Part shown: piece by piece, positions 850-23,708 of the stretch
Numbering within the stretch: position 1 is the first letter of the stretch
How the letters are laid out: the number at the start of each line of letters is the position of its first letter
DNA from: Rhodothermales bacterium
GTDB lineage: Bacteria > Bacteroidota > Rhodothermia > Rhodothermales > UBA10348
DNA: 64,000 nucleotides
NCBI GenBank assembly: GCA_017643395.1
Contig: JAEPNP010000001.1
Coordinates: 1,549,001-1,613,000, forward strand
Direction: 5' to 3'
Notes under the pieces: model-generated
Told to the model about the DNA's origin: nothing
The model's input: the letters and a program-made list of their open reading frames with translations, nothing else
Databases searched by the model: none
Translations under genes and position numbers: made by a program

Positions 850-2082
850 ATGGATCGAGCCCCAGTCATCGTTGTCGGTGCCGGCCTCGCCGGGTTGACC
901 TGTGCGCGTCTGCTGCAGGACGCAGGCATCGCCGCGGTCGTGTACGAAGCTTCCGATGCCGTCGGTGGTCGGGTTCGCACGGACGAGATGGACGGCTTCC
1001 GACTGGACCGGGGATTTCAGGTGTTGCTGACGGCATACCCGGAGACCCAGGCCTTGCTGGACTACGAGGCGCTGGAACTGAGGACGTTTTTCGACGGCGC
1101 TTTGGTGCGCACGGAAGCGGGGTTCGAGCGCATCGCAGATCCGTTTCGGCAGCCGGGTGCTGCCCTGGCGACCGTATTGGCCGGCGTGGGCTCGCTGGCG
1201 GACAAGATGAAAGTCGCCCTGCTCCGTCAGGGTGTGCGTTCCGGCGAGCTCGAATCCGTGTTTGAGCGGGAAGAAATGACCACGGCCAACGCGCTCTCCG
1301 AGCGGTGGGGTTTCTCGCCGAGGATGATCGACACCTTCTTCCGCCCCTTCCTGGGAGGCATTCTCCTGGACGGCGACCTTCAGGCGTCCAGCCGCATGTT
1401 CGAGTTTGTCTTCCGCATGTTTTCGGAGGGGCAAGCCGCCGTTCCGGCCCGCGGCATGCAGGCCATTCCGGAGCAGTTGGCCGATGGGCTCACGGTGCAC
1501 CTCAACACGCCGGTTGGCTCCCTGCAATCCGGCGAGGTGGTCCTGCAGGACGGTACCAAGGTGCCTGTCTCTGCGGTGGTTGTTGCCACGGCGGCTCCGG
1601 CCGCCGCGCGATTGGTGCCGGAGGTCGTGCATACGTCTGGAAGACGGGTCACAAACCTGTATTTCTCTGCCCCCGAAGCGCCTGTATCCGACCCCGTTCT
1701 GGTGCTGAACGGAACGGGCAGCGGCCAGGTCAACAATCTGGCTGTGATGACTAATGCCGCACCCGAATATGGTCCCGGCGAACGCGCGCTGGTTTCGGTA
1801 ACGGTGCTCGGGGCACTCTCGGGCTCCCCGCAGGACGTGCAGGACGAATTGAGTCAGTGGTATCCAGCTGCGGTGGCGTGGCAGCATCTGCGCACCTACG
1901 ACATCGAGTACGCCCTTCCTGAGCAGGCTCCGCCGTTTCTGTCCCCACCGCATCGGGCCGTGAAATATGCCGACGGCTTGTTTGTCTGCGGTGACCATAG
2001 GGACACGGCCTCCATCAACGGTGCCATGGCCTCTGGCAGACGTGCCGCCGAAGCGGTTCGGGAGTTTCTGGCGGCCCGCTAG
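850..2082 (+). CDS. NAD(P)/FAD-dependent oxidoreductase (amine oxidase / phytoene-desaturase-like)
   Basis: The 410-residue protein opens with a Rossmann dinucleotide-binding fold: VVGAGLAGL (GxGxxG at about residues 10-15), then an acidic residue in VVYEAS, then the GGRVRTDE motif typical of flavin amine oxidases, protoporphyrinogen oxidase and phytoene desaturases. The C-terminus carries the FAD-closing motif GLFVCGDHRDTASINGAM. I chose the ATG at 850 because the Rossmann strand begins a few residues later. An upstream in-frame ATG at 787 would add a basic, unsupported extension. There is no signal peptide, so it is probably cytosolic or membrane-associated. The substrate is unknown; carotenoid or porphyrin-like oxidation is possible. 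Its stop overlaps the convergent gene at 2079 by 4 bp. Confidence 0.85.
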   Translation: MDRAPVIVVGAGLAGLTCARLLQDAGIAAVVYEASDAVGGRVRTDEMDGFRLDRGFQVLLTAYPETQALLDYEALELRTFFDGALVRTEAGFERIADPFRQPGAALATVLAGVGSLADKMKVALLRQGVRSGELESVFEREEMTTANALSERWGFSPRMIDTFFRPFLGGILLDGDLQASSRMFEFVFRMFSEGQAAVPARGMQAIPEQLADGLTVHLNTPVGSLQSGEVVLQDGTKVPVSAVVVATAAPAAARLVPEVVHTSGRRVTNLYFSAPEAPVSDPVLVLNGTGSGQVNNLAVMTNAAPEYGPGERALVSVTVLGALSGSPQDVQDELSQWYPAAVAWQHLRTYDIEYALPEQAPPFLSPPHRAVKYADGLFVCGDHRDTASINGAMASGRRAAEAVREFLAAR

Positions 2083-3308
2083 CGGTCGCCTTGTTCGAGC
2101 ACCCAACGTTTCGAGCCGTCCTCGCGCAGGGTCCAGCCTGCATTGAGGGTCAGCGTGTAGCCGTCTCCCAGGATCGGCGACGCGAATGCACCGGGGGCAG
2201 GCACCACAACACCGCTCCAGTCCTGCCGGATGAGCGCCCCGCCGTCCACCTCCAGCACCCCCCACGCGTCGGACAGGCGCAGACCCTGATAGACTTGACC
2301 GTGGTCCGGCAGCGTCTCCACCTGCCCCGGGTCGAAGCTCACCTGCATCTGTCGAAAGCCGAGGAAGAGATGGGGGTGCGTGACGTAGCGCTCCAGCTGC
2401 ATTTCATGCCTTCTCTGCCGTTCAGCCTCCAGGGCATCTTCTGTGGCCGCCAGGTGGGTGGCTCCAAGTGAATCAAAGTCAGGATCAGCTGCGGGCCGGA
2501 TCGGGAGCAGGCCCGGGAGGTCGGTGTCGGGAGCGATGTGGTCACGCCAGTCCGCCCGCATTTCGTCCAGGATGAGACCCCATGCCGGACCAGTTGCGTA
2601 CGCGAACGTGCGAACGAATGAAGCGGCGTCCTCGGCCTCTTCCAGGTCCCGTGCTGCCGCCTCCCTTGCCGCTTCCAGGTCAAGGCCGGAAAGCCGGAGC
2701 CCCGTGTACTGGGCAAGACCCTCATGGAGGAGCAGGGCGTTCTCGGCGGACGCGGCATCGGGGAATATTGCCAGACGCGCGTTGCGGGCAGCGAGCGCAT
2801 CGCCCACCCGGGATGCGTCACCGCGTAGGGCGGCGGCAAGCGCACGCATCTCCAGAATGAGCCAGTAGCGTCCGTCCCTGGAGCCCAGGTGCGGATTCGA
2901 GCCGCCCTCCTGCGGCAGCCCGGCCTGAGGTTGTATGCGGTGGAACGCCTCGTGCGACAACAGGCGACGTAGCCCCGTTTCGGTCTCAGGAAGCGGCCAG
3001 GCCATCATGGTCCACCGGTGTTCACCCCAGTCGGTGGCGGTGTTGGCAATGGGCACCGAGTCGGGCAGCACACCCTTCCAGAAGCCGGCTTCCTCGGCAA
3101 AGCCGGGGGCCGGACGGGTGGCCCACGCCAGGCGCGAATCGGGATCGGCGATCATCAGCGGCCCATCCAGGGACACACCCCAGAGGTGTCCGGAGTCCTC
3201 CTCAGCGAGCCTTGTGAGAGCGGTAGCCACCAAGCGGGCATCTTGCCAAGACGGCTGAGCCGCCAGGGGAGGCGCGAGCAGCAGGATCAGGAGAGGGAGA
3301 GCACGCAT
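2079..3308 (-). CDS. Secreted protein with HExxH and HEGLAQY motifs, putative zinc metallopeptidase
   Basis: The 409-residue product has a clear signal peptide (MRALPLLILLLAPPLAAQP). Residues 119-123 read HEAFH inside LLSHEAFHRIQ, matching the HExxH zinc-peptidase signature. About 70 residues on is LLLHEGLAQYTG (H195-E196), which resembles the third-ligand glutamate segment of gluzincin peptidases. These two motifs are the only functional clue; I do not recognise a named family. The ATG at 3306-3308 was preferred over an in-frame ATG six codons upstream because it gives a cleaner signal peptide. It is likely periplasmic or outer-membrane associated, and convergent with the oxidoreductase at 850-2082. 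Confidence 0.6.
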   Translation of the reverse strand: MRALPLLILLLAPPLAAQPSWQDARLVATALTRLAEEDSGHLWGVSLDGPLMIADPDSRLAWATRPAPGFAEEAGFWKGVLPDSVPIANTATDWGEHRWTMMAWPLPETETGLRRLLSHEAFHRIQPQAGLPQEGGSNPHLGSRDGRYWLILEMRALAAALRGDASRVGDALAARNARLAIFPDAASAENALLLHEGLAQYTGLRLSGLDLEAAREAAARDLEEAEDAASFVRTFAYATGPAWGLILDEMRADWRDHIAPDTDLPGLLPIRPAADPDFDSLGATHLAATEDALEAERQRRHEMQLERYVTHPHLFLGFRQMQVSFDPGQVETLPDHGQVYQGLRLSDAWGVLEVDGGALIRQDWSGVVVPAPGAFASPILGDGYTLTLNAGWTLREDGSKRWVLEQGDR

Positions 3309-3345
3309 GGTGAGATAACGGGGCAACTGAGCGAATCTTGCCCCC

Positions 3346-4164
3346 CTACCGTCTGACAGCTCTGCTCCCCTGCGTCAGCGCCCCTCCGGGTACGTCTGGC
3401 TCGAAGACCGCGGGGTGAGACACCAGGCCCGCTGAGGAGTCCGGCACCAATACGTTGAAGTGGAGATGCGAGCGACTGGTGAAGCCAGTGAGGCCTGAAA
3501 GTCCGATCGGCTGTCCACGTTTCACAGAGTCCCGCAAGGCGACCAGACTGCCGCCGGGCTGCAAATGCACGTACTGCGTGTAGAGGCCCGACTGCGGGTG
3601 GAAGAGCGTGATGTAATTGGCGTGATCGCGGTACTTGCGGTTGTTGCCGCCTGCTGTGTTCTCGTCAACGAGTCCGATGACCATGCCGTCGGCGGCGGCC
3701 GTCACGGTGTCCCCGACCGCAAGGGCAAAATCCAGCGCATACCGGGCAAACGGATAGTTGTGGGAGAACGAGCCGTAGTATCCCTGAATGACCCGGTACC
3801 AGCGTCCTGCCGGAAAGGGCAGGGAGAGGGTCTCCGCGCGCACCGGCCAATCGAGCGAGCCAAAAGTGAGGCTGCCGCGAACGGCGCTCGAAAGAGACGT
3901 CGAGTCCAGGCCTGGAGCGTGCACACGAATCGGCTTCTCGGACAACGGCGCCAGGACGAATGCGGTGTCCAGGGCAATCGCGTCCGAAGTCAACTGCACC
4001 CGCATGGGGCTGGGAACCGTGTTGTGCACGGTCACCACAAGCGAGTCGCCCCGGAGTTCACGATCCATGCGCACGTCATTCTGGCGAGTGACGGGCTCCG
4101 GGAGCGACTGGCAGCCGGCTAGCAGGATGACCAGAAACAGGCGATACACGCCCCGAAGATACAC
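3346..4164 (-). CDS. M23-family metallopeptidase lipoprotein (LytM-like)
   Basis: The C-terminal half carries the lysostaphin/LytM fold: HNYPFARYALDFA supplies the first H...D zinc ligands, followed by TVTAAADGMVIGL, a YVHLQPGGSL strand, and the HLHFNV (HxH) motif near the end. M23 enzymes cut peptide cross-links in peptidoglycan, or act as inactive activators of amidases. Using the GTG at 4162-4164 as start gives a 17-residue lipoprotein signal ending in ILLAGC, with Cys at position 18. The frame is open further upstream (ATG at 4206), but that start would overlap the divergent gene at 4205 and give an overlong signal. The product is therefore probably anchored in a membrane facing the periplasm. 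Confidence 0.85.
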   Translation of the reverse strand: MYLRGVYRLFLVILLAGCQSLPEPVTRQNDVRMDRELRGDSLVVTVHNTVPSPMRVQLTSDAIALDTAFVLAPLSEKPIRVHAPGLDSTSLSSAVRGSLTFGSLDWPVRAETLSLPFPAGRWYRVIQGYYGSFSHNYPFARYALDFALAVGDTVTAAADGMVIGLVDENTAGGNNRKYRDHANYITLFHPQSGLYTQYVHLQPGGSLVALRDSVKRGQPIGLSGLTGFTSRSHLHFNVLVPDSSAGLVSHPAVFEPDVPGGALTQGSRAVRR

Positions 4165-4204
4165 CCCGGTTATGCGCTGGATCTGGTCTGCCGATACCGG
4201 AGGC

Positions 4205-4819
4205 ATGCCAAGTCTCGTTGCGTTTCTGACATTGCTGTTCAGCCTGGTCGCAGGCATGAAGGACCCCTGGTCTCCGCTAAGGGCGAGGGCCGACGCCGGC
4301 TCGTCCTACGATCGTCTGCAGTGGGGCATGATGAACTGGTTCGGAGCACAGGGTCTGTCATACAAAACGCTTCTGGCGGATCCCGCGGTCGATGCCGAGT
4401 TGGGCCGAAAACTCATCACTGAGGAGGCCCTGGACGGCAACTGGATGGCCGGGCCTATCTATCTCTACAAGCTCGAAAGACCGTCTCCCGATCGCTGGAA
4501 AAAGCTTGCCGAAGCGGGCCACCCCATGGCTGTTTCCATGCACGCGCTGGACGTGGCTCTGTCTCACTGTGGTGATGGCGTCGTTCCGGAGCCGGAGATC
4601 GTGACCTTTCAGGCCCGGTACCTGCCACGCATGGATCTAATGGGTCAGTTGGACCGAATGCCGAGGAATCCCAACGCTCGCTCCCGACGCATCGAGGGGG
4701 TGACCAAGGAATATCTGACAACCGTGTATTTCGTCGAAAACATCAACCTGCACGTGCCGGAGATCTGCGGCAACGCCAGCCAGATCCTCCAGTACCTGGG
4801 CTACACGGATCCGGCTTGA
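4205..4819 (+). CDS. Two-cysteine protein of unknown function, paralogue of the gene at 10329
   Basis: The 204-residue protein has a hydrophobic N-terminus (MPSLVAFLTLLFSLVAG), either a signal peptide or a signal anchor. It aligns with the protein encoded at 10329-10979. The segment after W-K-K (LAEAGHPMAVSMHALDVALS) matches AAAAGDLHSIELMAMLEARR there without gaps over about 43 residues. The cysteines at 122 and 188 match 138 and 203. The A-x-A-G plus helix pattern recalls Sel1/TPR-like helical repeats, but no named domain is recognised. The start is the ATG at 4205, preceded by CCGGAGG; the frame is open far upstream only as the antisense of the M23 gene. A disulfide between the two cysteines is an inference. 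Confidence 0.7.
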   Translation: MPSLVAFLTLLFSLVAGMKDPWSPLRARADAGSSYDRLQWGMMNWFGAQGLSYKTLLADPAVDAELGRKLITEEALDGNWMAGPIYLYKLERPSPDRWKKLAEAGHPMAVSMHALDVALSHCGDGVVPEPEIVTFQARYLPRMDLMGQLDRMPRNPNARSRRIEGVTKEYLTTVYFVENINLHVPEICGNASQILQYLGYTDPA

Positions 4820-4824
4820 CCGGA

Positions 4825-5226
4825 TCACTCGCCGACAGGCGATGCTACTGCCCGCTCCAGGGCATGCCATGCCAGTAACGCGCAACGTGCTCGGGTTGGT
4901 TGGTCCTTGACCGCCACGAGCGCAAGCAGGTCCTCCGTCGGGGCCGCATCGAACAGTCGACTCCGCATGGAAGGCAGCGCCTCCACCGGCACGCCACGTG
5001 CTGCTTCCGTCATCATGGAGGCGGACGCCTTGGACAGCGCGCAACCAAACCCGTGGAAGTGAACGGCGCGCACCACACCGGCTTCGACACGGGCCCACAC
5101 GGTGTATTTGTCGCCGCACAGGGGATTGTACCCGCCGGCGCTGTGCGTGGCATCCGCCAGCTCCCCAAAATTTCGGGGGTTGGCATCGTGGTCGAGAATG
5201 ACGGCCTGTGCCAGTTCGGCTTCCAT
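4825..5226 (-). CDS. NifU/IscU-family iron-sulfur cluster scaffold protein (SufU-like)
   Basis: The 133-residue protein has the IscU/SufU fold with all three cluster-binding cysteines and the conserved aspartate: YNPLCGDKYTVW (C37, D39), GFGCALSKASAS (C62) and RARCALLAWHAL (C115). Such scaffolds assemble Fe-S clusters and pass them to apoproteins. It is the last gene of the operon 7964 to 4825, after the two molybdenum-hydroxylase subunits. Its ATG shares a base with the TGA of the preceding gene (TGATG), which implies translational coupling. This position suggests it serves the 2Fe-2S subunit of that enzyme, though a general housekeeping role is equally possible. Confidence 0.87.
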   Translation of the reverse strand: MEAELAQAVILDHDANPRNFGELADATHSAGGYNPLCGDKYTVWARVEAGVVRAVHFHGFGCALSKASASMMTEAARGVPVEALPSMRSRLFDAAPTEDLLALVAVKDQPTRARCALLAWHALERAVASPVGE

Positions 5227-7499
5227 CAAACCAGCCTGATGGGCAGCGTGCGCACAGGAGTGCCGGTGGCCTGCAGGATCGCCCCGGTGAGGGCGGGCGC
5301 CAGCGGCGGCACACCAGGCTCGCCGACGCCTCCCGCCGGCAACCGGGATTCCACGATGTGTACGTGCGTCTCCGGCGTCTCGTCGAGAGCCAGGAGCCGA
5401 TAGGTGTCGAAGTTACCCGTTGTGACTGCCCCATCGGCCGCCTCGATGCCATCCTTAAGGGCGAGCGTCAGTCCGAAGACCACCGCCCCCTCCATCTGAC
5501 TCCGGATGCGGTCCAGATTGACGGCGATGCCGCAATCCACAGCGCAATCTACCCGGTGAACACGGATCTGGCCGTTCTCGACGGAGGCGTGTACGGCGTG
5601 GGCCACATAGCTGGAGAAGCTGAAGTGGCCCGCGATGCCCATGCCGTGCCCGGGCGGGAGCTCTCGGCCCCATCCGGCCTCGTCCGCGGCAAGGTTGATG
5701 ACGCCCTTCAGTCGTGCCGTATCCAGCACCGGCGGACGCGGATACAAATCAGCCATCTCACGGTCCGGCCCAATCAGTTCCAGCAGCACTTCGCGAGCGT
5801 CTCTTCCTGACGCATGTGCGATCTCCGAAGCGAACGCATTGACCGAGAAGCCCTGCTGGATGTTGTACACCGAGCGCAGCCAGCCAATGCGCTGATGGGC
5901 GATGGCCTCACAGGCCTCCACACGCATACTGGGAATGACGTACGGACAGGTTCGCGCCCCTGAGCTGAGTTCGCCGGCTCCCGGACCCATGACGTTGGGC
6001 TGGAAGGTGGATCCGATCGTAGGGAAGGCTACGCGATGCAACCAGCCCGTGACCTGCCCGGAGGCATCCAGCGATGCCTTCATGTACTGAGCGCTGGGTG
6101 GGTGAAAGTAGTCGTGGCGCAGGTCGTCCTCCCTGCTCCAGGTCACCTTCACCGGCGCCCCGACCGCACGGCTGAGCAGGGCCGCCTCGACACAGTAGTC
6201 AGGCTTTGACTTGCGACCGAATCCGCCACCCAGGAACGTGACGTGCACGGTGACCTGTTCGGGGTCCACCCCAAGCGCGCCGGCCACGGATGCCCGTGCA
6301 GTTTGCGGTGCCTGAGAGGGTGCCCAGACCTCACAGCTGCCATCGTCCTTGACGTGCGCCACCGCGTTGGGAGGCTCCATGGGTGCGTGAGGGAGCATGG
6401 CCACATGGTACACGGCCTCCACGGTTTGAGCAGCGTCATTGAAGGCCTCGTCCACATCACCTGACTCTCGGACCACGTTCCCGGGAGCGGTTACGGAGGA
6501 TTCCAGGGCGGCACGTTCTCCCGCGCTCGACCAGGACTGGTGCTCGGACTCTTCCCATTCGGTGACCAGCTCATCTCGCCCGCGGAAGGCCGCCCACGTA
6601 TTGTCTGCGATGACCGCCACACCTCCCAACGCCTGGAAGGCGGGGGGCAGCGTGGCGTCGGGAAGTACCACGACATCGCGCACGCCGGGCACGGCGCGGG
6701 CGGCGGAGTCGTCTACCCGGCGCAGGCGTCCACCCATGACGGGTGAACGCTGGATCGCCGCGTGCACCATGTCCGGCACCTGCACATCGATCCCGTATTC
6801 GGCGGAGCCCGTTACAAAAGCCCGATTGTCCCGGCCCTGGATGTCCGTGCCGATGTAGCGCCACTCCTCCTGAGGGCGGAAAACCGGATCGCTCGGTACG
6901 GCTTGAGACGCCGCGGCCTGGGCAAGCTCGCCGAAAGAGAGGCGCCTGCCGTCGCTGTGCAGCACCTCGTGCACGCCCATCCTGCATTCCTGCGTGTCCG
7001 TCTGCCAGGTCTCGGCAGCTGCGGCCAGAAGCATCAATCGGGCGGACGCACCTGCACGACGCCAATCGTCAAAGTGATTCCGAATGGAGCGGGAGCCATC
7101 CGTGTTCTGGTTGCCGAAACGGGGGTGGCCGTCTGCCTGAAGAATGTGGCAGCGATCCCAGTCGGCACCCATCTCGTCGGCGATCACCGCGGGCACGCTC
7201 GATCGAATTCCCTGTCCCATTTCTGAGCGCGAGCAGACCAGGAAGACGTCGCCGTTCGTGTTCAGGCCAATGAATACGTTGGGCTGAAACTCGGAATCGC
7301 TCAGGGATCCGACCGGCTCTGCCCGGTCCGGCCATTGTGCCAGGTTGTCGCTGCGACACCCCGAAAAGACGCCGAGAACAAATACCGACCCTGCGCCCAG
7401 GGCGGTGGTCTTCAGGAAGCGTCGTCGCGATACGTTGAGGATCTGCAGCGATTCGGACGGGGTCGGGGCCTTCAGGCCCGAGAGTTCAAGTGCGTACAT
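5226..7499 (-). CDS. Molybdopterin-binding subunit of a xanthine-dehydrogenase-family hydroxylase (isoquinoline 1-oxidoreductase beta-like)
   Basis: The 757-residue large subunit belongs to the xanthine oxidase superfamily. It has a twin-arginine export signal (SRRRFLKTTALG, residues 24-35) followed by a hydrophobic stretch and a lipobox-like FSGC (C48), so the folded cofactor-loaded enzyme is probably exported by Tat. Family motifs include FLGGGFGRK, the SREDDLRHDYF stretch, and the C-terminal GVGEPGVPPLAPA, whose glutamate is the catalytic base in this family. The lack of an FAD domain and the pairing with a small 2Fe-2S subunit fit the IorAB / aldehyde or N-heterocycle oxidoreductase type. 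The substrate is unknown. It begins 3 bp after the small subunit. Confidence 0.88.
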   Translation of the reverse strand: MYALELSGLKAPTPSESLQILNVSRRRFLKTTALGAGSVFVLGVFSGCRSDNLAQWPDRAEPVGSLSDSEFQPNVFIGLNTNGDVFLVCSRSEMGQGIRSSVPAVIADEMGADWDRCHILQADGHPRFGNQNTDGSRSIRNHFDDWRRAGASARLMLLAAAAETWQTDTQECRMGVHEVLHSDGRRLSFGELAQAAASQAVPSDPVFRPQEEWRYIGTDIQGRDNRAFVTGSAEYGIDVQVPDMVHAAIQRSPVMGGRLRRVDDSAARAVPGVRDVVVLPDATLPPAFQALGGVAVIADNTWAAFRGRDELVTEWEESEHQSWSSAGERAALESSVTAPGNVVRESGDVDEAFNDAAQTVEAVYHVAMLPHAPMEPPNAVAHVKDDGSCEVWAPSQAPQTARASVAGALGVDPEQVTVHVTFLGGGFGRKSKPDYCVEAALLSRAVGAPVKVTWSREDDLRHDYFHPPSAQYMKASLDASGQVTGWLHRVAFPTIGSTFQPNVMGPGAGELSSGARTCPYVIPSMRVEACEAIAHQRIGWLRSVYNIQQGFSVNAFASEIAHASGRDAREVLLELIGPDREMADLYPRPPVLDTARLKGVINLAADEAGWGRELPPGHGMGIAGHFSFSSYVAHAVHASVENGQIRVHRVDCAVDCGIAVNLDRIRSQMEGAVVFGLTLALKDGIEAADGAVTTGNFDTYRLLALDETPETHVHIVESRLPAGGVGEPGVPPLAPALTGAILQATGTPVRTLPIRLV

Positions 7500-15332: not shown

Positions 15333-16072
15333 CACCACTCCACCTCCGAGATGTCGGCCCTCTCCGCGTGTTCGATGCGCTCTACGATGCGTCCGCTGCT
15401 CATGTGCAGAACCCGATCCGCCAACGCGCCGATGGCCGCATTGTGTGTGATAACTGCCGTGGTCGTGCCCGTTTCCCGATTCACCGTGTCGAGAACGCGG
15501 AGCACCCGACGCCCGGTGGACAGGTCCAGGGCGCCGGTCGGCTCATCGCACAACAGGACGTCGGGACGTTTGGCAACCGCGCGTGCAATCGCCACCCGCT
15601 GCTGCTCGCCGCCCGACAACTGAGCGGGGAAGTGGTCCTGCCGGTCAGCGAGCCCAACGAGCTCGAGGGCCTCGGAGGGCGGCATCGGGTCTCGCGCGAT
15701 TTCGGTGACCAGTTCCACGTTTTCCCGTGCCGTCAGGCTCGGAATGAGGTTGTAGAACTGGAAAATGAAGCCGACGGACTCGCGGCGATAGCGCGTCAGC
15801 TCGCGAGGCGTCGCAGCGGTGAGTTCCGTGTCGCGGTACCAGGCCTCCCCGGAGGTTGCGGTGTCCAGGCCGCCCAGGATGTTCAGCAGGGTGCTCTTGC
15901 CGCTGCCGGAGGCGCCCAGCAGAACGACCAGCTCTCCCTCACACAATTCCAGATCGATATCGCGGAGCGCATCGACGGTGACCTGTCCCATTTCGTAGGA
16001 CTTGCACAGACGTCGTGTCCGATAGACGGCCGCGCGCCGGGGGAAAGCGCTCTCGTCCGGGGCAGGGTTCAC
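15332..16072 (-). CDS. ABC transporter ATP-binding protein (LolD/MacB/DevA type)
   Basis: The 246-residue ATPase has Walker [10 protein letters not shown], the Q-loop [20 protein letters not shown], which is typical of the LolD/MacB class, signature [14 protein letters not shown], Walker [13 protein letters not shown] and the H-loop histidine in AVITHNA. The subfamily pairs with FtsX-type permeases, and one lies directly downstream. The GTG start overlaps the stop of the S9 peptidase (GTGA at 16069-16072). This ties the peptidase and the exporter into one translation-coupled operon, which is unusual. Confidence 0.95.
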
Positions 16073-18462
16073 TTCACATACGTGTCCATCCAGTCAACAA
16101 AACGGGCCCACATATCGAGTTTGTGCTCAATGGCACGCGGCGTATGGGACTCGTATGGGTACTCATACAGGACGGCAGTCTTCCCGTGTTCAGTCAATGC
16201 GTGAATCATTCGCCTAGACTGTACGGGAAACGTGCCGGTGTTGTTGTCGTCGCCGCCATGGTAGAGCAGCAGCGGCGTATCGATCTGGTCTGCCCTGAAG
16301 AAGGGCGACATTTCGATGTACGTGTGCGGGGCTTCCCAGATGGTTCGACGTTCGGCCTGGAAGCCGCTCGGCGTCAGGGACCGGTTATAGGCCCCATCGC
16401 CCGCGATGCCTGCCTTGAAGAATGGTGCGTTGGCCAGAATGTTGGCTGTGGCGAACGCGCCGTAGCTGTGGCCTCCGTGGCCGATTCGGTCGATGTCGAC
16501 GACTCCCAGTCCGTCTACCGCCCGGATGGCGGCGTACATGGCGTCCACAAGACTGCCGATGTACGTGTCGTTGTAGTTCTCGCCGACGATGGGAATGTCC
16601 GGATACACCAGGGCGTAGCCGGCTTTCAGCCAGAGGTCACTCCAGCGCAGCCAACTCATGTGGGTGAATGCGTTGTGGTTTCTCCTTCGGATGGCGGCGT
16701 GCTCATAGCCTTCGGCCGTCGTGTACTCGCGCGGATACGTCCAAAAGATGGCCGGGACCCTGGTGCCAGGCTCATAATCCACCGGCAGGCTGACCCGGCC
16801 CTGCACCTGCAAGCCGTCACGGCGCTCAAAGGAGAAGTCGATGCGCTCTGCGGCGGTCACTTCGGGGAAGGGGTCCTCATTCGCGGTGAGCTGGATCCAG
16901 CGCTCGCCTTCGACGAGATAGGTCTGGGGGTAGAGGGTGACGGATTCCCGCTGCACCAGCAAACGGGACATGTCGTCGTCCAGCGCTGCCAGGGGGCGGT
17001 CCCACGACGTGCGGGTTCCCTCGAACACGCGGGTGGATTCACCATCGAGCACGATCCGGTCGATGAACGGTTGCGGTTTGAACTCGGCATTGTATCCGGG
17101 TCCCTGCAGGAATGCAGCAGAGCCGTCCGAACTGAGCACGGCGTATTCGATGCCGTTGCCCGTGCGCCGGGTGACCAGGTCTCCGGGGAGCGAGGTAGGG
17201 TCGTCCGTTTCGTGGAAGTCGACGAGCATGTGCCGGGCATGCGGGTCCCCCCGCCACCACGCCACGCCGGACTTGCCGCCTTGCCGGACCTCCGCAAAGA
17301 CGGTCTGGCCGTCCCTGCTCAGAGAGGCGCTGCTGATGCGGCCCTGAGAGTCGGCCAGGGTGTCGGCAGCAGTAAGATCCCAGGGCGCGGCCGCTCGGCG
17401 CACCGTGTCCGGGCCATCGTCCGAGTTCTGAAGGAACAGCAGTCCTGAGCCGTCGGGGGCCCAGGAAAAGTCCCTGGGCTCGTTTCCACCGTTACCGCCT
17501 CCGCCTTCCCGCAACGGTTGGTACGACAGTTCCCTCTCTTCACCCGTGGTGAGGTTGAGCAGTACGGTCCGTCTCGGAAATCCACGGTAGCTGGTCCGGT
17601 AGCTGAACGGTCGTTCGATGCGGGAGGCAATAGCCCAGGCGCCGTCCGGACTGACGCGCACCGATTCCCACATGGACGCGGAGCCAACTTCTCGTACCCG
17701 ACCGCGAGCGTCGACCGCAGCGAGTTGAGAAGTGGTGTAGTGCTCAAAAAGGGCCTCTTCCCACGGGTCTTCCAGCAGGTTGGGCCAGGTTCGAGATGAG
17801 GTCGGTTCCGTCCGCGTCCGGCGCACGATCGGACCGGAGGGAACAGGATTCCAGGCCGGCTCCGGACCCCGGTCCTCCGGCACGAACAGCGTCACCACGG
17901 AGCCGTCGGGCAGCCACTGAACCATGCGGGAAACCGTGCTTCGAGCGCCTACGGTGGCCAGCACACGGCGCGAGGACATGGAGCGCGCCCTTCCGGTTGC
18001 GGCATCGGCGGTCCAGAGTTCGGTGTGGTTCGGCAGGTGGGCGAGAAACGCGATGCGGTTGCCGTCGGGCGACCAGACCATGTCGGACACAAAGGTGCCC
18101 TCGGGCAGCGTAACGGGGCGCATGGTCCCGGAGTCGAGGTCAAAAAACGACAGGCCGTTGGTGCCCCATGTCTCCAGGTGCCAGATCCGGTCGGTGGCCG
18201 GTCTAAGCTCCAGCTCGCCCAGCCGGTAGGTCTTCCGGGACATGCGATCCAGCGTCGACAGCTCGGTCTGGCGGGGCACCAGCACGTGGCGTGCGTTCGG
18301 GCTGACATTGCTCAGAGAGACGTAGTTCTTGTCGGTCTGCAGGGCCCGTGCGATGGACTCCGGAGGCTGGACATAAACCGCGTGATCCGGGTTTTCGGTG
18401 GGGTGGTCCTGGGCGACGGCCGGCGTCGTCAGCAGGAGTGCGGCGAAGAGGAGGAAGCGCAT
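16069..18462 (-). CDS. Secreted S9-family prolyl-oligopeptidase-like peptidase (S9D, glutamyl-endopeptidase type)
   Basis: The 797-residue protein has a signal peptide ([19 protein letters not shown]). A beta-propeller of [10 protein letters not shown] / [10 protein letters not shown] type blades follows, then a C-terminal alpha/beta-hydrolase. The nucleophile is Ser666 in [14 protein letters not shown], the acid lies in YHGGDDNN, and the histidine in [12 protein letters not shown]. The HSYGAF form and overall length fit S9D glutamyl endopeptidases. It probably cleaves oligopeptides in the periplasm. It heads the operon with the ABC exporter and is divergent from blaI across a 125-bp region containing the dyad at 18521-18578. 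A BlaI-controlled role in clearing toxic or signal peptides is inferred. Confidence 0.9.
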
Positions 18463-18520: not shown

Positions 18521-18578
18521 TTAATTCATTAGTTGCAACAATCGGCAAAACGGTCGTATAGTTGCGCTAAAGAATTAA
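18521..18578 (+). promoter_or_regulatory. Candidate BlaI operator and promoter in the divergent region
   Basis: TTAATTCATTAGTTGCAAC (18521-18539) is followed 21 bp later by GTTGCGCTAAAGAATTAA (18561-18578). The second is its near-perfect inverted copy, with one gap. The element TATAGTTG (18557-18564) resembles the Bacteroidota -7 box TAnnTTTG, with a TTG-containing segment about 20 bp upstream. The dyad would overlap the blaI promoter and lies 59 bp from the peptidase start on the other strand, so a dimeric repressor here could control both operons. Confidence 0.55.
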
Positions 18579-18587
18579 GAGTTGCTG

Positions 18588-18986
18588 ATGGCACGCTCGA
18601 AATCACCGACCCTGACCGACGCTGAACTTCGCCTCATGCGCGTTCTGTGGCGCAGAGGTCCGTCTACCGTCGCCGAAGTCACCGATGCACTGAAAGGAGA
18701 CGACAAGGTGGCCTATTCCACGGTTCAGACCACCATGCGCATCCTCGAAGAGAAGGGCTATCTGACCCACCACAAGGAGGGACGTGCGTTCGTGTACTCC
18801 GCGCAGGTAGGCGCCGGACAGGCTCGCCAAAGCGCATTGCGCTACGTGCTGGATCGCTTCTTCAACAACTCCCCCGAACTCCTGCTCATGAATGTCATCG
18901 AGTCCGAGGAAATCGACCTGGAGAACGCCGAACAGATTCGGGATCTCCTGCGAGCCTCCGGCCTGGATGAGGAGGTATCCTCATGA
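18588..18986 (+). CDS. BlaI/MecI/CopY-family transcriptional repressor
   Basis: The 132-residue protein is a full-length BlaI homologue. The N-terminal winged helix starts LTDAELRLMRVLWRRGPSTVAEV, with the recognition region YSTVQTTMRILEEKGYLTHHKEGRAFVY; a C-terminal dimerisation and cleavage region follows. BlaI repressors are inactivated by proteolysis initiated by an M56 (BlaR1) partner, and that partner is encoded directly downstream with an ATGA overlap. The ATG at 18588 is used; a TTG two codons before is less likely. It probably binds the dyad at 18521-18578. No beta-lactamase gene of class A is adjacent, so the regulon is something else. Confidence 0.93.
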   Translation: MARSKSPTLTDAELRLMRVLWRRGPSTVAEVTDALKGDDKVAYSTVQTTMRILEEKGYLTHHKEGRAFVYSAQVGAGQARQSALRYVLDRFFNNSPELLLMNVIESEEIDLENAEQIRDLLRASGLDEEVSS

Positions 18987-20788
18987 CGTTGCACCAACTG
19001 GCCTCCGGACTGGCGGAGGTTCTCGGCCACGGACTGTGGGCTTCTGTACTCATTGTCGGACTCGCCGCTCTTGCGGTGCGCGTGCTCGATACGCGCGGTC
19101 GCTCGAATGCCACGACGCGACATACCATCTGGACGGCCGCCCTGGCCGGTGTGTTGCTGCTGCATCTGGCGCTGGCTTCGCCCTGGCGCGCGGTTGACGG
19201 GGTAGAGACGTGGTCCGTTCCGGAAACGCAGGTAGCGGAGATCCTGCCCTCGACCGATGTTCTTCCGGAAGTGCTTCCGGCAGTTCAGGTCCCCGAGGGA
19301 CTGACTCTTCCTCAGATCGCGGGGCCGGTGCTTCTGGCTCTCGGTGTGGTCTGGCTTCTCGGTGCCTTGCTCGCCCTGGCCCGCATTGTGCAGGCCGTGC
19401 GATCGGTCCGTCGCCTAAAGCGCGGTGCGAGCGCGTTGCCGGAAGACCTGACGGATTGGCTGCAGGCCCGCATGCCGGGTGGCACGCGTCCTGTTCAATT
19501 TTCCACGGCGGCCGTGGCCTCGCCGGTTGCCACGGGCTACCGGAACCCCATGGTGCTTCTGCCCCCGGGGTTGCTCAGCAAGGCGGACCGGGAGACGCTG
19601 CTACAGGTGGCCCTGCATGAGGCTGCCCACATTCACCGGCGCGACGACTGGGCACTGCTCTTTCAGCGGGTGACCGAAGCGGTGCTGTGGTTCAACCCGG
19701 CGGTGAGGGCACTGGGCCGCTGGATGCAGAGCGAACGGGAGGCCGCCTGCGACGAGTGGGTGGTTACCCGCACGGGGCGGACGGGCGACTACGTGCGCTC
19801 GCTGAGTCGCATGGTGGAGTTGCGTCTCCTGGGCGGCGACCTCATGACCGCTCCGGGACTTGCAGCCCGCGAAAGCGACATCGTCAAGCGGGTGCGGCGC
19901 CTGCTGGAGGACGGGGCGACCGTTTCTGCGAATGCCATGAAGGGTCGAACCGGCGTGGCCGTCGCGATCATCGCCCTTGTGGTTGCGCTCTCTGTGCTCA
20001 AGGCGCCGGCCCTGAGCATCGTGTGGAATAGTGACTCCGATCCCGAGGTCACGCCGGTGGCGCTTGTGGCAGACAGCCCCCTGGCACCGCTGCCGCCGCT
20101 TGCTCCGCTGCCACCCCTGGCGCCCATTCCGGATGCCCCGGCCGAGCCGCCTGAACCGGCGGAGGTCCCCGCGGCTCCGGAGCCCGTGGAGCACCCGGAG
20201 CCCCCGGTAGCCCCTGATGTTGCCGAGGATCCGGCCCTGCCGGCCGATGCTCCAGGCGTCCCGCTTCAGGTCATCGAGCCGCTCGCTTCGTCGGCGCCGC
20301 TTGTCGTGATTGACCTGGCCCCGCCTTCGATGGCCACGGCTCCGGCTATGCCCGATCAGTTGGAAGAAGGTGGGTTTTCGCAAGACCTGACCGTCAAGGG
20401 ATGGCTCCGGCTGTTGCGTGTGGCCAAGGGCATCCCGTCCAGCGGGGATCGGGCTCGTCTGCTGCTGGACGCGACCAGCAAGATTCCGGCCAATGCCGAA
20501 GTCCACAAAGCACTCATCGACGCAGCGGCCTCCATTCCTTCCACCGGGGATCGTGCCCGCGTGCTGCACGCCTACAATCGCAATGTGGACCCGGCCTCCG
20601 CGCAGTACCTCGACCTCATCAGCGCGGCGCGCACCATTTCGTCCTCCGGTGACCGGGCCAACCTGCTGATAGCCATCATCAATCGGGCTCCTCGCAACGA
20701 GGCCATCGAAGAGGCGCTGATTGACGCGGCCGAGTCCGTTCCATCCACCAGTTCCCGGGAGCGTGTCCTGCGCGCCCTCATCCGATAG
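18983..20788 (+). CDS. BlaR1-like M56 membrane metallopeptidase with C-terminal SSGD repeats
   Basis: The 601-residue protein has the M56 layout: membrane helices near residues 19-35, 51-66 and 112-133, a cytoplasmic zinc-peptidase domain with HEAAH (212-216) and REAACDEW (252-259), and a fourth helix at 322-340. The sensor part is not penicillin-binding. A proline/alanine-rich linker (about 365-425) leads to four copies of a 34-residue helical repeat, (I/V)PS(S/T)GDRARVL, with key positions at 489, 523, 557 and 591, exactly 34 apart. The fourth copy lacks the Asp. The protease would destroy BlaI on signal. The start overlaps the blaI stop (ATGA) and follows GGAGG. Confidence 0.93.
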   Translation: MTLHQLASGLAEVLGHGLWASVLIVGLAALAVRVLDTRGRSNATTRHTIWTAALAGVLLLHLALASPWRAVDGVETWSVPETQVAEILPSTDVLPEVLPAVQVPEGLTLPQIAGPVLLALGVVWLLGALLALARIVQAVRSVRRLKRGASALPEDLTDWLQARMPGGTRPVQFSTAAVASPVATGYRNPMVLLPPGLLSKADRETLLQVALHEAAHIHRRDDWALLFQRVTEAVLWFNPAVRALGRWMQSEREAACDEWVVTRTGRTGDYVRSLSRMVELRLLGGDLMTAPGLAARESDIVKRVRRLLEDGATVSANAMKGRTGVAVAIIALVVALSVLKAPALSIVWNSDSDPEVTPVALVADSPLAPLPPLAPLPPLAPIPDAPAEPPEPAEVPAAPEPVEHPEPPVAPDVAEDPALPADAPGVPLQVIEPLASSAPLVVIDLAPPSMATAPAMPDQLEEGGFSQDLTVKGWLRLLRVAKGIPSSGDRARLLLDATSKIPANAEVHKALIDAAASIPSTGDRARVLHAYNRNVDPASAQYLDLISAARTISSSGDRANLLIAIINRAPRNEAIEEALIDAAESVPSTSSRERVLRALIR

Positions 20789-20793
20789 GTCCC

Positions 20794-21987
20794 ATGCGAG
20801 TCGTTCGAATTGCCACTGTCTGCCTGCTGGCCCTGCTGGTCGCCGCTCCGGCTTCCGCCCAGTCGGACCGCAAGATGAACTGGAGAATGACCCACGACCA
20901 TGTGGACTTCTCGGTGCGCATGGATGGTGAGGTCGAGTTTGCTTCCGACTATCGTTCGGTCACGCGCATGTCGCGGGATGCCTACCTGCGCATCCGAAAG
21001 GAAGAGCGACGTCGCGACTGGCGCCTGGACGTAGAGCGGGAGGGATCCACCATCGTGTACGACTTCCGTCGCAACGGCGATCGGATTCCGGCTGCGCAGG
21101 CTACCGAAGAAATCGGCGACCTGATCCTCTGGGTCGTGCGGGAGACGGGCATTGACGCAGAGCGTCGTGTGCGGCAATTGCTAGCCGACGGTGGTGCCGA
21201 TCTGGTTTTTGACGAGATCGAGATCATTCAGTCCAGCAGCAGCTCACGACGCTACCTTCAGCACCTTGTAAATCTGGGTGACCTGGAGGAGTCGGAACTG
21301 GTCCGGGCAGCGGTCCTCGCGGAGGACGAAATCCCGTCCAGCGGAGACCGGGCGCGCTTTCTGATCAACACCGTGGATCATTTTGCGGGTCATGTCCGGG
21401 CGGAAGCGGCGTGGAGCAAGACTGCCGGTTCGGTGCCTTCCTCCGGGGATCGCGCGCGCACGCTGATGGCGGGCCTCGAGGCCGAACTGGACGCGACCCA
21501 CATACTGACCGCCGCGAAAAGCATCCCGTCTTCGGGTGACAAGTCCCGCGTGCTCTTGCGGGCCATTGGCAAGGAGATGGCTCCGGCTGACATGGTGCTT
21601 CTGCTCCAGGCAGCGACTTCCGTATCGTCCTCGGGGGACCGAAGCCGGGTCCTGATAGCCGCGGCACCCCATATGGCTGCCGAAGAGGCAAGCCGAGCGG
21701 CCTATTTCGAGGCCGCGCGTGGCATCCCGAGTTCCGGAGACCGGGCTCGAGTGCTCCTTGCCGTGATTGAGAACGTTGAGCTGGATCAGCCTTCCTGGCT
21801 GGCACTTTTTCAGGCCACAACCAGTATCTCGAGTTCCGGCGACAAGGCCCGTGTACTCATGCGCGCCGTGCCGTTCGTCGAGGGAGAGCGCATGGAAGAG
21901 GCGTTTCTCGAGGCGGCCGAGTCCATTCCGTCCTCGGGAGATCGCACACGGGTGCTGACCGCGCTGGTGCGTGGCGCTCAGCCATAA
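20794..21987 (+). CDS. Secreted protein with seven SSGDR repeats, partner of the BlaR1-like protein
   Basis: The 397-residue protein has a signal peptide (cleavage near APASAQ, residue 23). An N-terminal domain of about 130 residues is rich in beta strands (VDFSVRMDGEVEFASDY). Seven helical repeats carry SSGD(R/K)xRVL, with the Asp at 185, 219, 249, 282, 316, 350 and 383, a spacing of 30-34. A degenerate eighth copy is at about 147-160 (QSSSSSRRYLQHLV). The same repeat makes up the extracytoplasmic tail of the M56 protein encoded 5 bp upstream, so the two probably interact or are parts of one split sensor. Function undescribed as far as I know; co-transcribed with blaI. Confidence 0.85.
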   Translation: MRVVRIATVCLLALLVAAPASAQSDRKMNWRMTHDHVDFSVRMDGEVEFASDYRSVTRMSRDAYLRIRKEERRRDWRLDVEREGSTIVYDFRRNGDRIPAAQATEEIGDLILWVVRETGIDAERRVRQLLADGGADLVFDEIEIIQSSSSSRRYLQHLVNLGDLEESELVRAAVLAEDEIPSSGDRARFLINTVDHFAGHVRAEAAWSKTAGSVPSSGDRARTLMAGLEAELDATHILTAAKSIPSSGDKSRVLLRAIGKEMAPADMVLLLQAATSVSSSGDRSRVLIAAAPHMAAEEASRAAYFEAARGIPSSGDRARVLLAVIENVELDQPSWLALFQATTSISSSGDKARVLMRAVPFVEGERMEEAFLEAAESIPSSGDRTRVLTALVRGAQP

Positions 21988-22038: not shown

Positions 22039-23295
22039 GTGGCGCTAACCGAATTTGATCTGGGGCTTCTGAACGGGGACGAGGGTCCTGCCGCGCGCAT
22101 GGCCATGTCCATCCTGCAGCGCATGCTGCCGGTATTCGGGGTCGACTCCTTCATGGATATCGAAGCCGCCCACATAGACTCCACAGTCTACATGGGGGTG
22201 GCCACCATGGAGTACGCCGAGCGGCTTGCGGAGATGGGCGCGCGCGTGCGTGTGCCCTCCACACTGAACGTGACCGGCGTCGACGAGCACGGGTGGCAGG
22301 ACTGGGAGGTCCCGGAAAACGTCGCCCAGAACGCTCTGCGCCAGATGAAGGCCTACGCGTCCATGGGCTGCATCCAGACGTGGACCTGCGCGCCGTACCA
22401 GACCGAGCATCGGCCGACGTTTGGCCAGCAGATTGCAGCCGGAGAATCCAACGTAATCGGCTTTTACAATTCCGTGATCGGGGCCAGGACGGAACGCTAC
22501 CCGGATTTGCTCGACATCTGTGCGGCCATCACGGGCCGCGTGCCTGCTGCGGGGCTGCACCTGGATGAAGGACGACGGGGTACCACCTTGCTCCGCCTCG
22601 ATGCGGTTCCGGTAGCGCTACAGGAAGACCCGGCGTTCTGGCCGGTCCTGGGTCATCTTCTCGGGCGATGGGCTCCGGACGGCATTCCGGTCGTGGACGG
22701 GTTAACCGTAACCCCCAGCGATGACGACCTCAAGGCGGTCTGCGCCGGTGCCGCCAGTTCCGGCGCCATCGCCCTCTTCCACCTGGTCGGGATCACGCCA
22801 GAGGCGCCTTCCACACGCGATGCTTTTCAGGCCCCTCCCCCAGCTGCCAGGCGGGTCAGTCTAGATGATCTGAGGAAGGCCTACCACGAGCTGAGCACCT
22901 CTTCCGGAAGCGCTCTTGACCTGGTGGTGCTGGGCAGTCCACACTTTTCCTACGACGAGTTCCGGGCGCTGGCCGGACTGGTTCAGGGGCGACGCAAGGC
23001 GGATCAGGTGGAGTTTCTGATTACCTGCAGCCGTTCGGTGCGCATGATCGCGGAGGCGGCCGGACTACTGGCTCCCATCCGGGAATTCGGAGCTCGAATA
23101 ACGGTGGACACCTGCCCGTTGACCTCCCCCATGTTGCCCGAGCGCATCAAGCACCTCATGACGAACTCGGCCAAGTACGCGTACTACTCTCCCGGATTGC
23201 TCGGCGTAACCGTCAGCTACGGTCGGCTGTCCGACTGCGTAGAATCCGCAGTTGCGGGCCGTATCGAACGTGAAGAGGGGCTGTGGCGCGCATAG
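22039..23295 (+). CDS. Aconitase X catalytic (large) subunit
   Basis: The 418-residue protein matches the aconitase X catalytic domain (COG1679 type). It opens with LLNGDEGPAARMAMSILQRM, followed by DIEAAHIDSTVY, the SMGCIQTWTCAPYQ and GESNVIGFYNSVIGARTERY stretches, and DTCPLTSPMLP near the end. Cysteines in the CIQTWTC, ITCS and DTCP segments are probable Fe-S ligands by analogy with the family. Characterised bacterial members dehydrate cis-3-hydroxy-L-proline, and archaeal ones dehydrate phosphomevalonate. No proline or mevalonate genes are nearby to decide. It starts at GTG 22039 and overlaps the small subunit by 13 bp. Confidence 0.9.
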   Translation: MALTEFDLGLLNGDEGPAARMAMSILQRMLPVFGVDSFMDIEAAHIDSTVYMGVATMEYAERLAEMGARVRVPSTLNVTGVDEHGWQDWEVPENVAQNALRQMKAYASMGCIQTWTCAPYQTEHRPTFGQQIAAGESNVIGFYNSVIGARTERYPDLLDICAAITGRVPAAGLHLDEGRRGTTLLRLDAVPVALQEDPAFWPVLGHLLGRWAPDGIPVVDGLTVTPSDDDLKAVCAGAASSGAIALFHLVGITPEAPSTRDAFQAPPPAARRVSLDDLRKAYHELSTSSGSALDLVVLGSPHFSYDEFRALAGLVQGRRKADQVEFLITCSRSVRMIAEAAGLLAPIREFGARITVDTCPLTSPMLPERIKHLMTNSAKYAYYSPGLLGVTVSYGRLSDCVESAVAGRIEREEGLWRA

Positions 23296-23708
23296 TCGAG
23301 GGGAAACTGGTGGTGCCGGGCGAGGCTGCGGGAATCACGCTGGCCAGCAGTGAGCCGCTCAGTTTCTGGGGTGGCTACGACCAGGCTTCCGGCGAGATCA
23401 TCGACCGAAGACATCCGCTGTCGGGCGAGTGCGGGGCGGGCCGAATTCTGGTATTGCCTTACACGCGTGGCTCCAGCACATCGACGGCCATCTTGCTGGA
23501 GTCGGTGCGCGCCGGCGTTGCTCCGGCTGCCCTTGTCACCGATCGCGCGGATCTGTTCCTGGCACTCGCTTCCGTGGTGGCGCATGAGATGTACAAGGCA
23601 TCGTTCCCAATTCTGGCGGTTTCGCCGGAGCAGTTTGGCGACATCCCGTCGGGAGTGCGGGCCCGACTGCTGGGAGCCTCGCTACACCTGGAGCCCGTCA
23701 GGTCGTAA
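23283..23708 (+). CDS. Aconitase X swivel-domain (small) subunit, DUF126 type
   Basis: The 141-residue protein is the separate swivel domain that completes aconitase X. It shows LSFWGGYDQASGEIIDRRHPLSG, then GRILVLPYTRGSSTSTAIL, where the conserved GSST serine binds substrate in the family, and a closing P-rich strand. Separate large and small subunits mark this as the type II form. It begins with GTG at 23283 inside the end of the large-subunit gene. Its 3' end overlaps the convergent zinc-ribbon gene by 11 bp. Together the pair forms one [Fe-S] dehydratase in the cytoplasm. Confidence 0.92.
   Translation: MARIVEGKLVVPGEAAGITLASSEPLSFWGGYDQASGEIIDRRHPLSGECGAGRILVLPYTRGSSTSTAILLESVRAGVAPAALVTDRADLFLALASVVAHEMYKASFPILAVSPEQFGDIPSGVRARLLGASLHLEPVRS

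Follow-up and report, generated by a model that had tools for sequence, protein, structure and literature searches.

A BlaR1/BlaI-type regulatory unit of a Rhodothermales bacterium with a secreted beta and alpha-solenoid protein as its probable sensor part

Results

The blaI-M56 unit and its secreted repeat protein

The DNA analysed here, referred to as the window, is a stretch of 64,000 nucleotides from a Rhodothermales bacterium (assembly GCA_017643395.1, contig JAEPNP010000001.1, positions 1,549,001 to 1,613,000). Its open reading frames (ORFs) reveal a unit of three plus-strand genes at 18588-21987, which code for a repressor of the BlaI/MecI type, a BlaR1-type M56 membrane metallopeptidase and an exported protein of 397 amino acids (aa). 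BlaR1 proteins of family M56 sense beta-lactams by a penicillin-binding domain and cleave BlaI. The blaI gene (18588..18986, 132 aa) was identified by PF03965 (E = 1.6e-31; 109.4 bits compared to a gathering cut-off of 22.6) and its product aligns without gaps to solved MecI. By an ATGA overlap it is joined to the M56 gene (18983..20788, 601 aa; PF05569, E = 5.6e-26, 91.8 bits compared to a cut-off of 31), and 5 bp past the stop codon of the latter begins the gene of the secreted protein (20794..21987), which was characterized by its ORF, family scans and an AlphaFold2 model. These coordinates are exactly those of the original prediction, made from the letters of the window and its ORFs, in which the genes had been treated as one unit.

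The M56 protein contains the zinc motif HExxH in the form HEAAH (residues 212-216, 19616..19630). The LHExAH of its family aligns to LHEYAH of Staphylococcus aureus BlaR1 (8exs), and the family profile (A5) matches the S. aureus structures 8exs and 8exp with E = 4.9e-20. According to hydropathy, the last membrane segment covers residues 325-343 (19955..20011). The protein lacks a penicillin sensor, as had been noticed before: a Pfam scan that recovered the Transpeptidase domain of a positive control (L096) detected no such domain in the M56 protein or the secreted protein, and the beta-lactam sensor equivalog NF000326 gave 53.7 bits, below its cut-off of 400 bits. Instead, the C-terminal tail (residues 473-601, 20399..20785) consists of four 34-residue repeats, recognized by their anchors, by genome search and by a lag test. 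The anchors D489, D523, D557 and position 591 (Ser) are spaced by 34, 34 and 34 residues.

The secreted protein starts with a signal peptide (residues 1-22, 20794..20859; by eye, with a hydrophobic peak from residue 3), followed by an eight-stranded beta domain (residues 27-98, 20872..21087) and by linker helices with an alpha-solenoid (residues 100-394, 21091..21975). Within the latter, seven SSGD repeats have their anchors at D185, 219, 249, 282, 316, 350 and 383 (spacing 34, 30, 33, 34, 34 and 33), and a degenerate eighth one (SSSSSRRYL, at 151) lies 34 residues ahead of the first of them. All anchors that had been listed from the sequence, four in the tail and seven in the secreted protein, were thus recovered, the degenerate repeat being an addition. 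The periodicity is far from chance. At a lag of 34 the self-identity amounts to 0.347 for the M56 tail (best-lag shuffle mean 0.138, largest 0.225) and to 0.229 for the secreted protein (mean 0.113, largest 0.180), values that none of 2000 shuffles reached in either case. Used as query against the genome, the secreted protein retrieved, at E <= 1, only itself and the M56 tail (E = 4.7e-23, 43% identity).

Known families did not account for the secreted protein. With HMMER filters on, no Pfam family matched it at E <= 5; the HEAT, ARM and TPR profiles remained unmatched while a HEAT-containing protein (L005) served as positive control, and no Pfam or NCBIfam model exceeded its cut-off. A match to NF011698 was set aside since it was below the cut-off (E 0.1). 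The AlphaFold2 model (m9470006d1013), calculated with six related sequences, reached a mean predicted local distance difference test score (pLDDT) of 90.9 and a predicted template modelling score (pTM) of 0.82. It shows strands at 27-98 (block pLDDT 86-95 from residue 31) and then helices at 100-394, which form a solenoid of two-helix repeats. No PDB structure matched the model at E <= 1e-3, and comparison of the whole fold gave generic solenoids only; the best of them (Z 13.4, root-mean-square deviation 9.9 over 263 residues) lies in a range common for helical repeats. Against the sequences of solved structures, the lowest E value of the beta profile was 0.028, obtained with a designed protein.

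Split and fused relatives

Relatives were sought in two phylum-level groups. A protein search of 60 relatives matched four genomes, the window's own included, and a scan of a genome collection yielded five loci, of which three belong to Acidobacteriota according to their titles. With the beta-domain profile, matches were obtained in 11 of 394 genomes from the window's phylum and in 34 of 247 genomes of the phylum group around Acidicapsa. All nine phylum loci outside the order were read, as were seven regions from five order genomes not read before and 20 of the further 33 in the Acidicapsa group (23 Acidobacteriota-group loci in all). The remaining 13 of the 34 Acidicapsa-group genomes matched by the beta part only, none of them appearing in the repeat search. 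Two loci were dropped: in G505/L105 the match lies in a radical-SAM-like ORF and was judged by eye to be due to chance, and the gene of L097 runs off its contig end.

The arrangement in which receptor and repeat protein are separate was found in the window genome and four further genomes of the order (G000, G001, G033, G054 and G681). These five genomes belong to three families, gene order is kept, and in 5/5 the ORF of the secreted protein is complete and begins with a signal peptide (by eye). M56 and secreted genes are thereby adjacent in five of the six order genomes that possess a protein with beta domain and repeats, so that the objection that they might never be neighbours in related genomes does not apply. 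At six of the 23 Acidobacteriota-group loci (G422, G423, G424, G439, G567 and G591), M56 part, beta domain and 5-11 repeats (8-11 in the Acidobacteriota of the collection scan) are fused in one chain next to blaI, which bears out the statement in the original prediction that one-chain versions exist in other phyla. The isolate Acidicapsa dinghuensis is among the bacteria with this fused version.

One fused protein (L028, 794 aa) was modelled with a pLDDT of 74.7 and a pTM of 0.47, values at which the relative placement of its domains is unreliable. Its membrane and M56 part comes first, then eight strands (370-443) and then helix pairs like those of the secreted model; the strands occur in the same order and have nearly the same length as those at 27-98 of the secreted protein. 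The four PDB matches with the lowest E values were S. aureus BlaR1 structures (8exp, 8exs, 8exq and 8ext). No plasmid relatives of its C-terminal part were found.

One further receptor, L096, harbors the beta domain between M56 (residues 32-346) and a Pfam-confirmed Transpeptidase domain (541-797). The solenoid of the other proteins therefore stands at the place of the penicillin sensor, in line with the earlier notion that the repeats replace it. Twelve additional M56 proteins from the Acidobacteriota group contain the beta domain without repeats (L108 with a weak match only), and so do M56 proteins of the order (G027, G030 and G680). A charged, helical-looking tail, coiled-coil-like by eye, follows the beta domain in place of a solenoid in the M56 proteins L098, L099, L101-L104, L108, L109, L192, L194 and L195.

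In a tree of M56 proteins, those of the split loci group with L026-L028, L096, L092, L094, L098, L099 and L102 (13 rows, support 95/91), separate from the other M56 proteins of the window genome; long branches (L006, L007) and odd sequence make-up (L022, L025) call for caution with this tree. A single clade of the split proteins and L026-L028 was not rejected by the approximately unbiased (AU) test (p-AU 0.477), a value that proves nothing. Concerted evolution of the repeats of M56 tail and partner, assessed as mean identity of 26-residue units at four split loci, was unsupported. A match between the cores of tail and partner was likewise given up, as it offers too little: four of the five split loci are dominated by the SGD type, which is widespread in the order, the M56 row SQT of G001 was picked wrongly from outside the tail, and the only informative case is G054, where a single PGE repeat stands next to a PGD array.

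Occurrence of the module beyond M56 proteins

Proteins with both a beta domain and repeats were examined in 22 genomes, and in 19 of them they are fused to or located beside a set of signalling genes. In 11 genomes these are M56/BlaI genes (five split, six fused). In five (G140, G195, G206, G346 and G354), the gene is directly followed downstream by genes for two LytS-type kinases and a LytTR regulator, Pfam having been run for the L045 example only. In three (G290, G419 and G512), it lies downstream of a gene for an extracytoplasmic function (ECF) sigma factor and a small putative anti-sigma gene; sigma domains were confirmed for L049 and L091, and the two putative anti-sigma proteins that were scanned had no Pfam match. 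The view that the module belongs to M56 systems consequently holds in part: it does occur beside or fused to M56/BlaI, and it also accompanies LytS/LytTR genes (5/22) and ECF sigma factors (3/22). In the five phylum genomes with L044-L048, the module may supply the input that the LytS/LytTR two-component systems lack. A PF04963 match in L045 was set aside as being below its cut-off (E 0.0029, 17.8 of 22.9 bits).

In the groups sampled, the repeat itself is confined to the module. A repeat-only profile matched six of 296 phylum genomes (26 matches) and eight of 247 genomes of the other group (28 matches), and every match was located in the module itself, the M56 tail next to it or a single 68-aa remnant (G637), the downstream gene of which is similar to the one at the fused G591 locus. 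Within the two sampled groups, the concern that it might be a general-purpose repeat was therefore not borne out; since the profile was built from module proteins, it could overlook very divergent versions. In the members scanned, no model of Pfam or NCBIfam exceeded its cut-off outside the M56/M48 peptidase part. Beta domains also occur alone, as in two lipoprotein-like proteins of 120-121 aa with no regulator in view (L051 and L052).

A repeat core that is uniform within arrays

Comparison of 112 repeats from 16 arrays showed, for the three residues that follow the invariant Ser, 83% agreement within an array and 28% between arrays, compared to 26% and 22%, respectively, at positions outside the core. 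Arrays of fewer than five found repeats (L048, L049, L050, L090 and the M56 tails) and the near-copies G001 and L027 were left aside. None of 300 permutations reached the observed difference at -1, +1, +2, +3 and +6 (differences 0.27-0.61); positions -4, +7, +9 and +14 also exceeded all 300 permutations, with differences < 0.1. A scan that left out one array at a time and made no use of the core positions gave 75-78% versus 26-27%. The core types comprise SGD, PGD, DGD, DHY, DYY, DYE, NYD/SYD, DFE, SSE, DHS/DHT and DHH; the arrays of L094, L095 and L047 are less uniform. A core triplet that is uniform within an array and differs between arrays is a new observation.

Recent duplication of whole repeats does not explain this pattern because it would make the helices alike too, which they are not. 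Ser together with Asp or Glu at +3 can cap a helix; this would leave the uniform positions +1 and +2 unexplained. Such uniformity within arrays is unusual as an evolutionary signature and suggests that each repeat in turn contacts something regular. It may reflect contact with a regular ligand, packing of loop on loop or recognition of one solenoid by another.

Operator-like pair and putative cleavage site

Two operator-like sites precede blaI. Site 1, TTAATTCATTAG (18521..18532, plus strand), adjoins a -35-like TTGCAA (by eye); site 2, TTAATTCTTTAG (18567..18578, minus strand), is inverted relative to it and lies 9 bp ahead of the blaI ATG. The exact motif TTAATTNNTTAG is present at two sites of the 4.5-Mb assembly, both in the intergenic region upstream of blaI, while the reversed control had none. 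Allowing up to one mismatch, two sites were found in the window (shuffle mean 0.10; none of 100 shuffles with two). The core TTAATTNNTTA is located no more than 90 bp ahead of blaI in the window and in L022, L024, L025, L026, L027 and L096, and in L190 it overlaps with the start called for blaI. These are all eight loci of one BlaI subfamily for which upstream DNA is available, L028 beginning at a contig end; the core is absent from the remaining 17 blaI loci examined. The inverted pair, a new observation, is a putative operator, and the motif is presumably unlike the classical bla/mec operator. Since the exact motif is unique in the assembly, a response would be local, including the operon itself and possibly a divergent S9 peptidase gene. 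A wider regulon of this BlaI was discarded after the one-mismatch search of the genome.

For S. aureus BlaI, the 2023 BlaR1 structure paper (PMC9834060) gives Asn101-Phe102 as the cleavage site. The aligned position of the window's repressor, identified by way of MecI N101-F102, is N102-V103 (codons 18891..18896); Asn is kept and the hydrophobic residue next to it is Val, P1' thus not being Phe. Asn followed by Val or Leu was found in 8 of the 25 BlaI proteins compared, in the same subfamily as the loci with the core TTAATTNNTTA, and by eye L190 BlaI is a further Asn-retaining member. Retention of Asn at this predicted cleavage site is also a new observation.

Discussion

The best-supported reading of the locus, to which we assign a probability of about 0.6, is that of regulated proteolysis of the BlaR1/BlaI type in which the penicillin sensor has been replaced by a module of beta domain and alpha-solenoid, here secreted as a separate chain, while the M56 protein has kept four repeats; the module as such is broader than M56. 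For docking, signal, BlaI cleavage and the direction of regulation, we infer the following scheme. BlaI would bind to the inverted pair at 18521-18578 and repress its own operon, perhaps along with the divergent S9 peptidase gene. The secreted protein, which carries a signal peptide and is probably located in the periplasm, would receive the signal, the uniform core ladder possibly being its contact surface, and dock on the repeats of the M56 tail. Contact between these two chains is suggested by the fused relatives, and together they might act like the single chain of the Acidobacteriota. The M56 domain would then cleave BlaI at N102/V103, as the MecI alignment and the known action of BlaR1 suggest, and thereby lift repression. 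Envelope stress as the signal would be a guess.

Several observations weigh against this reading. The module is uncommon, as the beta profile matched nine of 114 genomes of the order and only six of these have repeats. The tree of beta domains (six of 17 inner branches well supported) does not separate splitting from fusion. The tail repeats of the window genome (G000) are 0.43 identical to their own partner compared to 0.45 to the orthologous tail, and the tail of G054 is degenerate, with 0.26 identity to its partner. In three of the 22 genomes with beta domain and repeats, no regulator is visible; these are G501 (on a 6-kb contig), G616 and G680, the last of the same order as the window. Moreover, the operator-like motif with one mismatch is not in excess genome-wide (eight sites, compared to 13 in the reversed control).

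A more far-reaching possibility, put forward tentatively, is that of a portable periplasmic receptor which serves three unrelated outputs (M56/BlaI, LytS/LytTR and ECF sigma) and whose lineage-specific core ladder either reads a regular polymer such as a cell-wall or surface glycan or matches solenoids to each other, for instance the M56 tail and its partner.

It is rather unlikely that the secreted protein is a product of the response, e.g. an envelope-protecting or substrate-binding solenoid, with M56/BlaI sensing in some other manner through its own tail. Its gene is the last one of the unit, to which the exact operator motif is restricted, proteins without a regulator in view exist, as mentioned, and the structure paper (PMC9834060) places the products of the S. 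aureus system in the same divergon. On the other hand, six Acidobacteriota-group genomes have the whole module within the receptor chain, 12 more M56 proteins include the beta domain, without repeats, in the receptor, and the module also adjoins two other regulator classes. Even less probable is a negative co-receptor that holds the protease off via the M56 tail until a ligand releases or titrates it, similar to periplasmic inhibitors of envelope sensors such as CpxP. The same operon and the same repeats would suit such a role, and autoregulation would provide feedback; however, in fused receptors the module is permanently present, as would rather be expected of an input domain, and the present data do not separate activation from inhibition. 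That there is no functional link, the repeats being structural and the adjacency due to shared ancestry of a broken fused gene, is very improbable: the partly degenerate tails of G054 and G033 would agree with it, but signal peptide and ORF are intact at all split loci in three families, the secreted arrays keep a uniform core not expected of a decaying fragment, and a real remnant, that of G637, looks different.

The split-sensor reading places the window's unit beside several known systems. With BlaR1/BlaI and MecR1/MecI of S. aureus and Bacillus licheniformis it has in common the pair of blaI and M56 genes, the aligned HExxH and the Asn at the cleavage position; as in BlaR1, the input part follows the last membrane helix, a region which is extracytoplasmic in the N-out/C-out topology described in the structure paper (PMC9834060). 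What separates it from BlaR1 and MecR1 is the input of beta domain and solenoid, here on a second chain, and from S. aureus BlaI and MecI the Val or Leu instead of Phe after Asn. Acidobacteriota receptors share the three parts, the blaI neighbour and the strand order but have them in one chain. The same paper mentions a Mycobacterium tuberculosis BlaR1 homologue without sensor domain, for which a PASTA kinase was suggested as a possible substitute, and raises for it the question of how such proteins receive their signal. Both cases have an M56 protein without penicillin sensor that must take its input from elsewhere; unlike M. tuberculosis, the window has a co-transcribed secreted protein with repeats common to the M56 tail. 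Like ARM, HEAT and TPR alpha-solenoids, the secreted protein is built of two-helix repeats with many moderate structural matches, yet it lacks the family and PDB matches of these. Among the matches listed for open-licence PMC full texts, judged by titles and the starts of abstracts and with subscription papers mostly outside, no description of the module was found.

A conserved replacement of the input part that is visible in one-chain and two-chain forms makes the question of input directly testable. Suitable handles are the predicted operator, the putative site of BlaI cleavage and two soluble parts amenable to purification. Its occurrence beside histidine kinases and ECF sigma factors as well points to a sensor module that annotation pipelines miss.

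Other genes of the locus and the genome

An S9-family peptidase gene (PF00326; signal peptide by eye) is located at 16069-18462 of the minus strand, divergent from blaI, and shares with it the intergenic region containing the operator-like pair. It occupies what we take to be the place of blaZ in classical systems. A similar-looking divergent gene exists in the same genus (L024, 498-3059); none was seen at the other split loci.

The window genome has three further M56 genes, with HEAT repeats, with a TonB_C domain or with no recognised tail. The HEAT-tailed protein (L005, G000:C2:55500-63500, 917-4414 minus) carries a long HEAT array after M56 (HEAT_2, E 5.3e-91), adjoins blaI and is another solenoid-tailed M56 receptor. 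L005 and the TonB_C protein L007 resemble the window's system in having an M56/BlaI pair and a non-penicillin C-terminal part; they differ in that their tails are known Pfam families, the beta profile does not match, each is a single chain and they stand elsewhere in the M56 tree. At L191 (G680, 4535-5941 plus), an SDH-type protein with beta domain and repeats has no M56 gene or regulator in view, so that the order holds two core types. Downstream of the unit, 22039-23295 and 23283-23708 code for the two parts of an aconitase X (AcnX and swivel domain), a pair that by sequence resemblance is also located downstream in G001.

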